Positions 1 to 19,938 of a DNA stretch of 37,179 nucleotides are shown here, in pieces. Position numbers and translations under genes: made by a program. Every line of letters begins with the position of its first letter. Position 1 is the stretch's first letter. Location: NCBI GenBank assembly GCA_030446465.1, contig JAUJNI010000003.1, positions 136,868 to 174,046 on the forward strand, written 5' to 3'. The notes under the pieces were generated by a model that had not been told where the DNA came from, made no database searches, and saw only the letters and a list, made by a program, of their open reading frames with translations. The DNA comes from Actinomycetota bacterium (GTDB lineage: Bacteria; Actinomycetota; CADDZG01; WHSQ01).

Positions 1-116
1 GATGTTGATTTGGCCCCGGTGACGGGGGCCCGGCCAACAATGGACGAAGAGCAGGACGTCCGATGTTGATTTGGCCCCGGTGACGGGGGCCCGGCCAACA
101 ATGGACGAAGAGCAGG
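1..116. repeat. 55-bp perfect direct repeat, two copies
   Basis: Positions 1-55 and 62-116 are identical, separated by 6 bases. Each unit holds a GC-rich inverted repeat: GGCCCC and GGGGCC in the first copy at 12-17 and 25-30, nested near TTGGCC/GGCCAA. The second copy ends 15 bases from the stop codon of the minus-strand phosphodiesterase gene, so the hairpin could end that transcript, although no T-run follows. An exact short duplication right at the window edge could also be an assembly effect. Confidence 0.85.
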
Positions 117-4708: not shown

Positions 4709-4759
4709 CTTTCGCCGCTGCATGGTGTGCGCTATGCGTACGGGATGCAACAGAGAAGA
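4709..4759. repeat. 51-bp palindromic element, copy A
   Basis: This is the most diverged of four copies. It keeps the TGCA arms, the central GCGC-TAT-GCG hairpin and the right outer arm AGAGAAG, but its left outer arm reads CTTTCGCC. The start codon of the following AbiEi-DUF559 gene lies inside it (ATG 4722 or ATG 4734). Orientation is the same as copies B and C. Confidence 0.8.
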
Positions 4760-5666
4760 CCGAGAGCGGGTCCTCGCAGGCCTCTGCGCCCGCCAGTACG
4801 GGGTGCTTACACGAGAACAAGCGCACACTGCTGGGTTCACCGATTCGGCCATCAGGACGCGAGTCGAACAAGGCCGGTGGGAGATCATCCTCCCGCGCAT
4901 TCTTCGGGTCACGACCGTCCCGCGACGCTGGGAGCAAGACCTCATGGCTGCGTGCCTTTGGGGTGGGCCGCCAACCTGCGCGTCCCACAGGGCGGCCGCG
5001 GCGCATTGGGAACTTGCAGGAATCACTCGAGCGGTGGTGGAGATAACGTGCGAGCGCTCGCAGCGATGCCCCGACGGGATAAAGCTTCACGTCGTTCCGG
5101 TGATGCCTCGCTGCGACCTGGCGACGCTGCGAGGGATCCCGGTCACCAACGCCGCCCGGACGCTCGTGGACCTTGCCGCAGTGGTCGACGAGGAAACGCT
5201 CGAGATTGCTCTCGACGATGCTCTTCGACGGCGGCTGACATCAGTCCCTCGGCTGCGGTGGCGAATCGAGGAGCTGTGTGGGAAGGGCCGGACTGGTTGC
5301 AAGGCCCTGAGACGGTTGCTGGAAGTGCGGGGGCCGGGCAACGCGGTTCCCGAGAGCGTGCTCGAGACCAAGTTCCGGCGCCTGTTGCGCAACGCCGGCC
5401 TCCCACCGCCGGTCCTTCAGCACCCGGACGTGCCTCACCGGCGCGCACCGGGCCGGCTCGACTTCAGCTATCCCGACAAACGGATAGTCATGGAAGTGGA
5501 TGGGCGTCGCTGGCACTCAGGACGCCTACCGAGCATGCGCGATATGCGCAAGTCGAACTCGCTCAACATTCGCGGCTGGATGGTCCTGAGGTTCACGTGG
5601 GAGGACGTCCTCTACGAGGGGGCCTGGGTGGCGCAGCAAGTGCGGGCGGCAAGGGAGGCAGCGTAG
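4722..5666 (+). CDS. AbiEi-type winged-helix plus DUF559 (Vsr-like) nuclease-fold protein
   Basis: This protein of up to 314 residues combines an N-terminal AbiEi-antitoxin-like winged helix (about residues 15-65, LCARQYGVLTREQ and RVEQGRWE) with a C-terminal DUF559 domain of the very-short-patch-repair endonuclease fold (from about residue 220). The latter shows GRLDFSYPDKRIVMEVDGR, RRWHSG and GWMVLRFTWEDV, with candidate catalytic Asp and Glu in LDF and MEVDG. Actinobacteria carry many such proteins; some are annotated as type IV antitoxins, but no AbiEii toxin gene is next to it. All plausible starts (ATG 4722, ATG 4734) lie within palindrome copy A, since the next in-frame GTG at 4803 would cut the winged helix. 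Palindrome copies flank the gene on both sides, which suggests a mobile or selfish unit. Confidence 0.8.
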   Translation: MVCAMRTGCNREDRERVLAGLCARQYGVLTREQAHTAGFTDSAIRTRVEQGRWEIILPRILRVTTVPRRWEQDLMAACLWGGPPTCASHRAAAAHWELAGITRAVVEITCERSQRCPDGIKLHVVPVMPRCDLATLRGIPVTNAARTLVDLAAVVDEETLEIALDDALRRRLTSVPRLRWRIEELCGKGRTGCKALRRLLEVRGPGNAVPESVLETKFRRLLRNAGLPPPVLQHPDVPHRRAPGRLDFSYPDKRIVMEVDGRRWHSGRLPSMRDMRKSNSLNIRGWMVLRFTWEDVLYEGAWVAQQVRAAREAA

Positions 5667-5676
5667 GCCGCTAATT

Positions 5677-5727
5677 CCTTCTCTGCTGCATGAGGTGCGC
5701 TATGCGCGCAGGGTGCAATGAAGAAGG
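5677..5727. repeat. 51-bp palindromic element, copy B
   Basis: The copy has left outer arm CCTTCTCT, inner TGCA arms and the central GCGC-TAT-GCGC hairpin. Its right outer arm reads GAAGAAGG, with two mismatches to perfect pairing. It lies 10 bases after the DUF559 gene and 33 bases before mntA. Confidence 0.9.
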
Positions 5728-5764
5728 CAGTGGGATAGCCGGCCCACGTACCATGAGGGCGTGA
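5690..5764 (+). CDS. Possible 24-residue leader peptide starting inside the palindrome
   Basis: An ATG in copy B opens a short frame, MRCAMRAGCNEEGSGIAGPR followed by TMRA. Its TGA at 5762-5764 overlaps the GTG start of the MntA-like gene in a GTGA junction. The first 13 residues correspond to the N-terminus of the DUF559 protein, because both are read from the same frame of the repeat. It could be a translational coupler or a chance frame. Confidence 0.25.
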   Translation: MRCAMRAGCNEEGSGIAGPRTMRA

Positions 5765-6189
5765 ACAACAACTTGATCGAGATGCTCAAGACCGGCTCCT
5801 CGGCGGCTTTCGAAGGGTCGGAGGTATTGTTTGCCTTCCTGTTTGGGTCTCAGGCCACGGGCTTGGCCAGGCAGGGCAGTGACGTAGACGTCGCCGTCTT
5901 CCTCGAGGGCTTCAATCGACCAGAGTTCGCCCTCGATGCCACGTTGGAGTTGACGAACGAGCTGGCGAAGGCGTCCCGCATAGGGCGACTCGACTTAGTA
6001 GTGCTCAACGTCGCACCCCTGGCCCTGCGAGGGAGAATCCTTAAAGAAAGAGTGGTCATCTACTCGAGAGACGAACCCGCACGCGTGCGTTTCGAAAGCG
6101 TGGTGATGAGAGAGTTTTTCGACTTCGATCTCCATGCCAGGGCGCTCGACAGGGAGTTCCTCTTGGATATCAGCGAGGGGCGACGCTGA
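5761..6189 (+). CDS. mntA: MNT-domain nucleotidyltransferase, MntA-like antitoxin
   Basis: This 142-residue minimal nucleotidyltransferase has the signature GS-x10-DxD at residues 29-43 (GSQATGLARQGSDVD) and a third acidic residue at Asp78 (RLDLVVL). In type VII toxin-antitoxin systems MntA transfers AMP to a tyrosine of the HEPN toxin and so neutralises it. The start is GTG 5761; a TACCAT hexamer at 5749-5754 ends 6 bases upstream and could be the -10 box of a leaderless transcript. The HEPN gene follows with no gap, as expected for a toxin-antitoxin pair. The pair sits between palindrome copies B and C. Confidence 0.88.
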   Translation: MNNNLIEMLKTGSSAAFEGSEVLFAFLFGSQATGLARQGSDVDVAVFLEGFNRPEFALDATLELTNELAKASRIGRLDLVVLNVAPLALRGRILKERVVIYSRDEPARVRFESVVMREFFDFDLHARALDREFLLDISEGRR

Positions 6190-6612
6190 ATGGTCGATCC
6201 CGCACGAGTCCGCACCCTGCTCGACCGGTTGCAAGAAGAACTAACCCATCTCCAACGACTAGCAGCGTCCCCAAAAACCAGGACCGGGAACAACCCGGAC
6301 ATCCTCGCAGCGATCAAGTACCGCTTTGTCGTCGCCATCGAGACATGTATTGATGTGGGACAGCACATCATCTCCTCAGAAGGGTTGAGGAGCCCGGCGG
6401 ACTTTGCAGATGTCTTTGTCGTCTTGGGTGAAACCGACTTCCTGACACCTGACGCCGTTCAGCCGCTCCAACAGATGGCTCGGTTTCGCAACCTCTTAGT
6501 GCACGGCTATCTTCGAGTAGACGACTCCAGGGTGCTCGAGATCTTGAGTTGCAACCTCGGAGACTTCGTTCGCTTCAGACGTGAGATTGCCAAGAGTGCG
6601 CTTCAGGGTTGA
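6190..6612 (+). CDS. hepT: HEPN-domain (DUF86/HepT-like) ribonuclease toxin
   Basis: This 140-residue, all-helical protein carries the HEPN RNase motif R-x4-H-x-Y as RNLLVHGY: Arg100, His105 and Tyr107. HepT toxins cleave RNA, and the motif tyrosine is the residue AMPylated by MntA. The ATG follows the mntA stop codon directly, so the genes are translated together. Homologous pairs occur widely on bacterial chromosomes and mobile DNA, in both stress and phage-defence settings. The gene ends 8 bases before palindrome copy C. Confidence 0.9.
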   Translation: MVDPARVRTLLDRLQEELTHLQRLAASPKTRTGNNPDILAAIKYRFVVAIETCIDVGQHIISSEGLRSPADFADVFVVLGETDFLTPDAVQPLQQMARFRNLLVHGYLRVDDSRVLEILSCNLGDFVRFRREIAKSALQG

Positions 6613-6620
6613 GCTCCGGG

Positions 6621-6671
6621 CCTTCTCTGCTGCATGGGGTGCGCTATGCGCCCAGGGTGCAATAGAGAAGG
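6621..6671. repeat. 51-bp palindromic element, copy C (most symmetric)
   Basis: From the outside in, the element pairs CCTTCTCT with AGAGAAGG (8 bp), has a 2/2 mismatch (GC/AT), pairs TGCA with TGCA, has a 6/6 asymmetric block (TGGGGT versus CCAGGG), and pairs GCGC with GCGC around a TAT loop. The total is 51 bases. It lies between the convergent hepT and UDP-xylose synthase genes. There is no T-run, so it is not a standard intrinsic terminator. Confidence 0.92.
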
Positions 6672-6678
6672 CCGGAGG

Positions 6679-11019: not shown

Positions 11020-12007
11020 GTGAAGGACAGGATCGCCAGACCCAGGCTCATGATCGTCATGGCAAGCGCCTCAACTCTTGCCTTTTCTGTGCTGTGGGCC
11101 GGGACCGCCATCGCGGGTGGGGGCAACGCCATCTCTCACCGATACCGCCGACGACAAGACCTCCACGGTGACCCAGACGACGACCGATACCGCTGACAAG
11201 ACCACCTCCACGGTGACCCAGACGACGACCGATACCACTGACAAGACGACCTCCACGGTGACCCAGACGACGACCGATAAGACGATCTCCACGGCGACCC
11301 AGACGACGACTCAGAAGGTGGACGACGTCGTGAAGACGGTCGAGGACACGGCGGATGGGGCCGCCGAGTCGGTGGGGTCGGCAACTGGGGCCGCCAAGCA
11401 GACGGTGACCAACGTGACGAGCGGCGCCAACTCGGCTGTGAAGGATGTCTCGAACACCGCCGCAGAGACCACCGCTCCACTCACCGATACCCAACAAAAG
11501 GCCCCTACCGGCACCCCTCCCACTTCATCGACCACATCCTCTTCTCCACAGAGGGCCCCTCAGACCGCTCCTCGAACCACCTCTTCCTCGAGCCCTTCTG
11601 CAACGACGCAAACAACCACGCAACGACGCCCCGTCCCCGCGGCCCCTCCAAGCAAGAAGGTGAAGTCGACGCGGCCCGCAAAGGAGCGGCTGAAGACGGC
11701 CGAGCGGACGGACGACTCGAACAAGGTGGCCAGCAGCGGGAACCTCATTGGTGCCCGCACCTTCTTGAACGAGCGCGTAAACGGACAACAAAATGCGGGA
11801 GGCACAGCCGATAACTCGAATCAGGAGCCGGCCGGCGGCCTGCCCTTCACCGGCCTAAACATCCTGGTGTGGCTGATGTACGCGGGGATGCTCGTGGGTA
11901 CTGGGGCGCTCCTCATCGGAGGGATCAGCCTGAGGCCGGGCCCGAAGCTGAAGGCGCTCCTCAGATCGCGAAAGGTGCGTCCCGCGGAGGTTCTCCAGGC
12001 CGGATAA
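11020..12007 (+). CDS. LPXTG-type cell-wall surface protein with Thr-rich repeats, frameshifted after the signal peptide
   Basis: A GTG at 11020, with GGAGG at 11011-11015, opens a frame encoding a signal peptide (MKDRIARPRLMIVMASAST, then a hydrophobic stretch ending GTAIAGG). The rest of the protein is in the next frame, joined near the G-run at 11118-11124; removing one G gives a 328-residue product continuing GGATPSLTDTADD. The mature part has 14-15-residue Thr-rich repeats (TSTVTQTTTD-type), a Ser/Thr/Pro-rich stalk, and the sorting signal LPFTG followed by a hydrophobic helix and basic tail. A sortase would link it to peptidoglycan; no sortase gene lies in the window. Function is unknown; the composition suggests a wall-spanning stalk. 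Confidence 0.75.
11156..11310 (+). repeat. Tandem repeats of about 45 bp inside the LPXTG gene
   Basis: About three and a half units encode K-T-(T)-STVTQTTTDTADK-like blocks. The third unit is shortened by three residues and the fourth has ISTATQTTTQ. Such repeats can vary in number between strains. Confidence 0.8.
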
Positions 12008-12881: not shown

Positions 12882-13574
12882 CTAGCCCTCGCACATGGGG
12901 ACCTTCACTCTGCCCCCCTGAGGGTCGACGCAGGCCAGCTCGCCTTCGGGCCCCGACGCGTAATAGGTGCCGACGAAGTTCCCTATTGCGAAGGGGTCTA
13001 TGCCGTTGCAAGTCTGCACCGCGCCCCACGCCGAGAGCGCGAAAGGCACGTCCATATCGGGGTACTCGACGACTATCAGGGACTTGTAGCCCTCCTGAAA
13101 TAGTGCGTTGAAAGCCTCCCCTACCTGCTGGGTCTGCTCCTCGGAGAGGTTGTTGGTCCATCCGATGACCGCGCCGTGCTCGAGCGAATGGACCAGCCGG
13201 CCAAGCGGCTGAGGCTGGTCGTAGATCGCCCCCACCTCGACGACCTCCGAGGAGTGGTCTCCGCCGGCTGGGGGGTTGGTGCTGTAGTCCCCAGGCGTGA
13301 GCTCCTTATTGACGTGTTGCTCGGAGGTGATCTTGACCTCCTCTATGTCGGAGCACCCCCCGCCGGGGGAAGCGGAGACCTCAGCAGTCGGCTCCTCGGT
13401 CGGCTCCTCGGTCGCCTCAACGGTTGGCTCCTCAGTCGGCTCCTCAATCGCCTCCGGCTCTTCCTGCGCGTCATCCCGCGGCGCCGCATCCTGCTCCCCC
13501 TCTCCTCCACAGGCCGAAACCACTAGCGCAACGACCATCACCGCAACGAGCAGTCGACGAAGAGAGATGTTCAT
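12882..13574 (-). CDS. DUF3105 lipoprotein
   Basis: This 230-residue protein begins MNISLRRLLVAVMVVALVV followed by the lipobox SAC, so it is a lipoprotein. An acidic, repeat-like linker rich in EEPT units follows. The C-terminal domain has STNPPAGGDHSS and RLVHSLEHGAVIGW, the conserved NPP...H and HxLEHG blocks of DUF3105. Two further cysteines near the end (QTCNG, LACVD) may form a disulfide. I chose the start at 13574 because it gives a complete lipoprotein signal. DUF3105 has no firmly known function; the conserved His residues suggest a metal or ligand site. Confidence 0.85.
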   Translation of the reverse strand: MNISLRRLLVAVMVVALVVSACGGEGEQDAAPRDDAQEEPEAIEEPTEEPTVEATEEPTEEPTAEVSASPGGGCSDIEEVKITSEQHVNKELTPGDYSTNPPAGGDHSSEVVEVGAIYDQPQPLGRLVHSLEHGAVIGWTNNLSEEQTQQVGEAFNALFQEGYKSLIVVEYPDMDVPFALSAWGAVQTCNGIDPFAIGNFVGTYYASGPEGELACVDPQGGRVKVPMCEG

Positions 13575-18293: not shown

Positions 18294-18344
18294 CCTTCTC
18301 TGTTGCACCCTGTGCGTATAGCGCGCACCCTGCAAGAGAAAACG
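18294..18344. repeat. 51-bp palindromic element, copy D (inverted)
   Basis: This copy has the same 51-base length as A-C but lies in the opposite orientation. Its reverse complement keeps GCGCGCTAT, CAGGGTGCAACAGAGAAGG and TGCA arms. It fills the gap between the sirtuin stop and the encoded CCA of the convergent tRNA-Tyr, 6 bases away. Confidence 0.88.
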
Positions 18345-18350
18345 AAGATC

Positions 18351-18542: not shown

Positions 18543-19938
18543 TTAGTCGCCGGTCTCCGACAGAGGCGACAGGCTCTTAACCTTGCCGCTGCCGTGGCCG
18601 GTCTCCTCGAGAATGGCATCGAGTTGCGCCTTCGGGCTGCCGGGGGCCGGGATCCTCTTGCGGAGGGTGCCCACGACGTCTTTGGCTGCAGGATCGAAGG
18701 CGGTGTCGAAAAAGTCCTTGGACACGCCGGTGACAAGCGTCGCGCTGGCCACTTCGAAGGCTCCGGGTGACCGACGTGCGACCTTCGGGACAAAGGCGTC
18801 GCCGAAGCGCCGTTGCGCCGTCAGCGCGCCGTTCTCCTTTTCGAGCTTGTTCTGCCGGTGGTACACGACCTCGAGCGATTTGCCCTGAGCTTGGCGAAGC
18901 CATCGCACGAGGTAACCCATTGGGTCTTTCGCCTTGCCGTCCACACCCTGATACCACCCAAAGTGAACGTGGCTTGGGGTCGTGATGGCGTTACCTGTGT
19001 TGCCGCAGAACCCGATGATGTCACCGGCTTCCACCTGGCTCCCCTCGGGGAACTCCTCGTTGTTCCAGTCGGACAGGTGCGCGTAGTACCAGTAGCTGCC
19101 GTCCGGGCGGAACAACCGAGCGACCCGGCCCCCGAGCAAGCCGTCGCCATACTCGACGACTCCCGCCTCCGACGCCAGGACAGGATCACCGTAGGTGCAA
19201 AAGACGTCTTGTCCCTCGTGAGTGCGGACGATAGGGCCTGGGCCGTAGCGCGGAGCACCCCAGGTGTTCGTCCACGCTGCCTTCCCACCGATGATGAACG
19301 GCGCGTAGACCTTCTTCATGATCTTGGACATCGGCATGCCGAGCGACCGCAGCTCGTTGGCGATGGCGACCAGCTTCTCGCTGTTGAACGCCCCTTGCGG
19401 AGTAAAGGTGCCTACGAAAGTCGGAAGCTCGACCTTTCCCTTGCCGTGCCCCACCGCCTTCTTCTTGGCTTCACGCGGGCTCTTTCGGTCGTTGCCGCTC
19501 TCGTGGGGGCTCTTGTCCGTCTCGGTTGGATCTCCGGCCTTCTGCTTTCCCGCGTTGGTCACCTTGTCGATGGTGTCCCCAACCGGATCATTGCTGTTGC
19601 CACCGCCGTCGTTCCCACCGTTGCCGCCGTCGTTCCCACCGTTGCCGCCGTCGTTCCCACCGTTGCCGCCGTCGTTCCCACCGTTGCCGCCGTCGTTAGC
19701 CGCCGTTGTTACCGCCGTTACCGTTGTCGTCGTCATCGGGCGGAGGAGGGGTCGGCGTCTCTTTGGGGGTTGGAGGGTCCTTGGGCGTGGGGCTCTGCAG
19801 CGGGTTCGGGAGTGTGGGCGTCGGAAGCACCTGAGCAACTGCGTCGGGCACGACGTTTCGCACCGCAGGGCGCGGCAGCACGATGGTAGCCACCAGTAGC
19901 ACCACTATCGCCAGCGCTATGCGTGCTGCTCTTCTCAC
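18543..19938 (-). CDS. Secreted M23 (LytM-type) metallopeptidase, frameshifted in a Gly-Asn repeat
   Basis: A GTG at 19938 starts a signal peptide or anchor (MRRAARIALAIVVLLVATIV) and a Pro/Thr-rich linker. This frame stops at 19696 within a Gly/Asn/Asp repeat. The rest continues in another frame after one extra base near 19697; the repaired product is 464 residues. The C-terminal half holds an M23 peptidase domain with zinc ligands in THEGQD (HxxxD) and HVHFG (HxH), plus YYAHL. M23 enzymes cut peptide cross-links of peptidoglycan. The MSKIMKKVYAPF block before the domain and the long C-terminal tail are specific features. The repeat makes true length variation or a sequencing slip plausible at the break. 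Confidence 0.82.
19611..19694 (-). repeat. Four perfect 21-bp tandem repeats in the M23 gene
   Basis: Four identical 21-base units (19611-19631, 19632-19652, 19653-19673, 19674-19694) encode Asn-Asp-Gly-Gly-Asn-Gly-Gly. A degenerate copy carrying the frame break follows. The units probably form a flexible linker to the peptidase domain. Confidence 0.9.

Follow-up and report, generated by a model that had tools for sequence, protein, structure and literature searches.

Dispersed palindromes have so far been tied to HUH transposases: REP elements and their RAYT (TnpA-REP) transposases together make up 'REPtrons' (PMC3116915, PMC3733652, PMC8266576), and a dedicated enzyme is said to be missing from some REP classes (PMC3733652). 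Inverted repeats are also bound by the known AbiEi antitoxins, in their own promoters (PMC7319586). A search confined to the openly accessible literature, with subscription literature outside its scope, returned no paper that ties DUF559 proteins to palindromes or REPs. Here we describe an islet in which a gene for an AbiEi-DUF559 protein lies between two copies of a palindrome. We propose, at a probability of roughly 0.6, that it is a single unit of a small system that is mobile or once was, in which the nuclease copies its matched palindrome to new sites. This reading builds on the pairing of gene and palindrome, its specificity, the dispersal of the palindromes, their presence and absence at one locus, the concerted change of the two ends, and the folds of the protein; binding, cleavage and protein-driven copying of the palindrome would be the enzyme's part in it.

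The window, the whole stretch of 37,179 nt that was analysed, belongs to a genome of 2.76 Mb in 6 contigs and contains four copies of a 51-nt palindrome. Copy A (4709-4760, + strand; 75% identical to copy B by repeat search) marks the 5' end of a nuclease unit and corresponds to a covariance-model match of 71 bits at C1:141571-141631. The gene itself (4722-5666, +) encodes a protein of 314 aa with AbiEi and DUF559 domain matches; its start candidates are the ATGs at 4722 and 4734, and the start codon lies within copy A. Copy B (5677-5728, +; 75 bits) follows 11 nt after the stop codon and closes the unit that copy A opens. Outside the unit come an MntA-like nucleotidyltransferase antitoxin (5761-6189, +; Pfam Polbeta, 3.4e-17) and a HepT-like RNase toxin (6190-6612, +; Pfam HepT-like, 3.7e-25). 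Copy C (6621-6672, +; 92% identical to B, 78.8 bits) stands alone 9 nt past the HepT stop codon, between the convergent HepT and epimerase genes. Copy D (18294-18345), on the opposite (-) strand and scoring 70.5 bits, is likewise solitary and lies between a convergent SIR2 gene and tRNA-Tyr. Repeat search, open reading frames and domain matches thus agree with the preliminary description on the order of the islet (A, nuclease, B, MntA-HepT, C) and on the shared orientation of its palindromes. Elsewhere in the window, short tandem repeats occur inside open reading frames of probable secreted or repeat proteins (11138-11315, 13367-13450 and 19582-19741).

In the AlphaFold model of the window protein (pLDDT 92, pTM 0.87), the N-terminal half is AbiEi-like and DNA-binding in type, and the C-terminal half is a nuclease of the Vsr/EDxHD type. 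PADLOC matched AbiEi at 3e-32. Foldseek returned the AbiEi antitoxin 6y8q (E 1.2e-5) and the catalytic domain of the homing endonuclease I-Bth0305I (3r3p; probability 1.00, TM 0.74), and a profile search gave 3hrl (2e-13), 3r3p (1.9e-5), 6y8q and, weakly, Vsr. Among 55 sequences, D247 and D274 are invariant and E215, E258, D260 and H265 are conserved in at least 90%. The protein therefore has the C-terminal fold and the conserved acidic and histidine residues of I-Bth0305I and Vsr, but differs from both in its AbiEi-like fusion and in being bracketed by whole palindromes, with no intron or split site; no mismatch-repair context was seen. Its N-terminal fold is that of AbiEi from type IV AbiE systems (6y8q), whose known members bind inverted repeats at promoters. 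However, the present protein has a nuclease half of its own and dispersed repeats, and no match to an AbiEii toxin partner was found among its neighbours in the window. The REP transposase family Y1_Tnp (PF01797) gave 0 matches in the window's genome and was positive in 5 of 14 control genomes, which rules out a RAYT as the enzyme.

The palindrome family of the window extends through its own genome, with 12 places recovered by the covariance model, 8 of them strong. A sequence pattern of the family found 6 genome matches versus 0 for the reversed control, and on these two counts the palindromes are not a product of chance. Across the 12 copies the stem shows covariation, with 78.8% paired, a level reached by 0 of 500 shuffles. 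Copies other than A and B lie mostly just 3' of stop codons or between convergent genes, and outside the islet their neighbours are ordinary genes (SIR2 and tRNA-Tyr, a subtilase and an ABC ATPase, of which only the last two are named from reading translations). Pattern scans of genome contigs and viral contigs for the exact window palindrome gave no match, because every nuclease has a different palindrome, and in relatives the covariance model found weak look-alikes only. Some weak matches in the window's genome (G000) and in G002, at L030 near 1659-2195 and 4030 and at L035 near 6311, have common flanking sequence, as if at orthologous positions, and an open reading frame that looks LAGLIDADG-like by eye is close to those in G000.

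The neighbouring MNT-type nucleotidyltransferase adjoins a HepT protein with an RX4HXY-type motif (RNLLVHGY), as in MntA-HepT; this is a standard toxin-antitoxin pair that stands by chance in the interval from B to the solitary copy C. The preliminary description had instead seen in the islet a palindrome-bounded accumulation of defence or toxin-antitoxin modules, akin to gene cassettes. Three same-orientation copies do enclose two modules here, as they would if small defence modules, whatever their kind, were joined to one another at palindromes and built up like cassettes. Yet the other copies border ordinary genes rather than defence genes, mostly alone, and palindromes are missing at both of the only two HepT relatives found in the class, so that we find the cassette reading hardly credible. 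Integron attC sites are also palindromes beside small genes, but the present copies have no shared modular cargo and for the most part stand singly at the ends of ordinary genes. The palindromes themselves give no sign of integron-like behaviour.

What does recur is the association with DUF559 genes. The window's genome has six of these, the window gene included, and an unbiased search of 377 kb for palindromes placed other palindromes beside other members. One paralogue is flanked on both sides by doublets of a different palindrome; another has a palindrome across its stop codon, its 5' flank being at a contig edge; a decayed paralogue has inverted palindrome copies at both ends, and another, also decayed, carries a palindrome 3' of its stop codon. 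At the remaining paralogue, L044, the end repeat is weak (own-end match 9.5). For the three clear units the 5' flank matches its own 3' flank with scores of 21, 43.5 and 17, and cross-matches between units reach at most 11.5. A second palindrome family in this genome has 12 matches, 10 of them in five doublets exactly 72 nt apart, and a third has 35 half-matches, many as doublets 61-63 or 72 nt apart; the reversed control gave 0 in each case. The third family forms tandem copies with a 61-nt period (CGTCCATTGTTG...) at window positions 1-116 and also flanks the DUF559 gene at C1:605-895. REPIN-like doublets with the exact 72-nt period flank a DUF559 gene and also occur by themselves (L045 3919-5165; C4:391945, C4:469661 and C6:77468).

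Within the class, DUF559 genes often have one and the same palindrome at both ends, the palindrome differing from gene to gene; at one gene in G006 the two copies are identical over 51 nt. We fetched 80 named loci from Acidimicrobiia, Micromonospora, Mycolicibacterium, Pseudonocardia, Catellatospora, Kribbella and others, together with one planctomycete assembly, and most show this pattern with palindromes of about 50-60 nt. Flanks were compared by a strict alignment with a score of at least 16, in place of a gap-tolerant one that picked up too much noise in GC-rich sequence (8% of controls scored 60 or more). By this measure a repeat is shared by the 5' and 3' flanks of 50 of 79 named AbiEi-DUF559 genes and 12 of 26 class genes, versus 3 of 423 control genes (Fisher 2e-44 and 3e-14, respectively, values that overstate certainty because related species are not independent). 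The positive genes span many genera. Among phage DUF559 genes only 1 of 47 scored, and that match is a mis-called frame of 19 aa. About a third of the AbiEi-DUF559 genes are without a shared end repeat; the seed proteins were picked close to the window protein, and these fractions are therefore not those of all DUF559 proteins, 16 diverse members of which gave an alignment too divergent for scanning. Own 5' and 3' flanks match at 16 or more in 62 of 95 units, versus 140 of 8930 comparisons between units. The suggested link between DUF559 genes and palindromes, including their co-occurrence across genomes, is thus strong, general and gene-specific. In G021 (L036 near 2194) a palindrome has the half-sites TGTTTCAC and GTGAAACA, which we take to be the halves of parS, separated by 13 nt; this is probably coincidence.

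The palindromes could instead be bidirectional terminators or stabilizers of mRNA 3' ends, which double as AbiEi-type operators at the nuclease gene and were spread by recombination or by some other enzyme. Solitary copies do lie mostly within about 90 nt 3' of a stop codon or between convergent genes, some fold far better than shuffled sequences (copy C, z -5.2), and AbiEi proteins autoregulate through inverted repeats. However, terminators do not need to share sequence, whereas these families are sequence-specific and matched to a nuclease; palindromes are present at the 5' ends of nuclease genes too; control genes of the same genome rarely have paired copies (2 of 283); and dozens of near-identical copies require a copying process. 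Gene-specific families and 5' copies rule out plain terminators as the whole answer, and we consider the wider form of this explanation unlikely. If the nuclease is the copying agent, as we propose, its AbiEi-like half would probably bind the gene's own palindrome, and its Vsr/EDxHD-type half would probably nick or cut that palindrome or a hairpin formed from it. Cutting would then let the palindrome alone, a doublet, or the gene between two copies enter new intergenic sites by copying. Most dispersed copies would settle just 3' of genes, where a hairpin should do little harm and may act as a terminator, and copy C may be one such settled solitary copy.

This lifestyle resembles that of REPs and RAYTs in several respects. 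Palindromes are intergenic and dispersed, often at gene ends and sometimes as doublets; an enzyme gene is flanked by its own repeat, a layout that the preliminary description had likened to a REP next to its RAYT and that is seen here; several enzyme-specific families share one genome; and an IS-like gene is seated in one palindrome copy. Each nuclease lineage is matched to one palindrome family as a RAYT is to its REPs, the two enzymes being unrelated. Against these likenesses, the enzyme here combines AbiEi with a Vsr/EDxHD nuclease rather than being an HUH Y1 transposase, the palindromes measure about 50-60 nt versus 20-40 for REPs, and the GTAG tag of REPs is not conserved in two palindrome alignments read by eye. 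Since the enzyme fold differs and two defining features of REP systems, the Y1 transposase and GTAG, are absent, the elements are not members of that group. We judge it slightly better than even that they are actinobacterial mobile elements of a new class, in which an AbiEi-fused Vsr/EDxHD-type nuclease recognises a palindrome private to it and copies this either by itself or within a palindrome-gene-palindrome unit, an enzyme of a different fold taking the place of the HUH transposase. The islet type has the look of small mobile DNA of a kind not yet described, run by an enzyme unknown in such a role. The AbiEi-DUF559 genes, a common and unexplained family annotated as endonuclease or antitoxin, thereby gain a candidate substrate in the palindrome at their own ends, which makes their biochemistry directly testable, and scattered actinobacterial palindromes gain a possible origin. 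These data suggest that mobile DNA may be the proper home of many genes now classed as AbiEi defence antitoxins.

Dispersal is most extensive in Micromonospora. The half-palindrome TTGATCATGRRGTTRNYG occurs 10-134 times in each of ten Micromonospora genomes and 0 times in seven other actinobacterial genomes, for a load of roughly 5-67 palindromes per genome. Nineteen copies align as 61-mers, in which 21 outer pairs are 97.5% paired with changes on both sides present, and 16 of 17 solitary copies examined lie just downstream of a gene. The full unit is often found between purA and purD (gene names from translations). A role in defence or addiction would suit the AbiEi domains found in phage-defence toxin-antitoxin systems. 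The nuclease would then act on an invader's hairpins or cruciforms, cutting them, or would damage cells from which it is lost, with the palindromes as its control or marking sites. The Micromonospora unit, however, stands alone between its neighbours purA and purD with no partner toxin gene seen beside it, and such a role leaves the dispersed copies unexplained; we give it a very slim chance.

We searched 81 genomes with the joined ends of purA and purD. Among the junctions read, 6 genomes are without a palindrome, 7 have one palindrome and no gene (one of these decayed, and one in which part of the nuclease leader is left), and a further 7, together with eight named-species loci, have the full palindrome-gene-palindrome unit; these are counts of states, and change could have run in either direction. 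G087 looks like gene loss, so a lone palindrome can be what a lost unit leaves behind. At the divergences of these purA-purD sequences, no target-site duplication was readable. Empty, palindrome-only and full states at one locus would also be expected if the AbiEi-DUF559 gene were a free-standing homing endonuclease gene that invaded older palindromes and left one on each side; its nuclease half resembles the I-Bth0305I domain, and doublets are possible targets. But with a different palindrome at each paralogue, many older families would have had to arise independently; homing as a rule interrupts its site, whereas both copies here are whole; and the 5' and 3' copies change together. We regard homing as quite unlikely. 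Across 15 full units, the 5' and 3' palindromes within a genome are 0.80 identical, versus 0.65 for orthologous palindromes between species (permutation p 5e-5), and the two ends therefore change in concert, though gene conversion without the nuclease could be an alternative source of this. M. qiuiae has a second unit of the purA-purD unit's family at another site. One further Micromonospora palindrome copy is interrupted by a gene whose product has the rve integrase core (L246 1637-2740), an arrangement that recalls insertion sequences seated in REPs.
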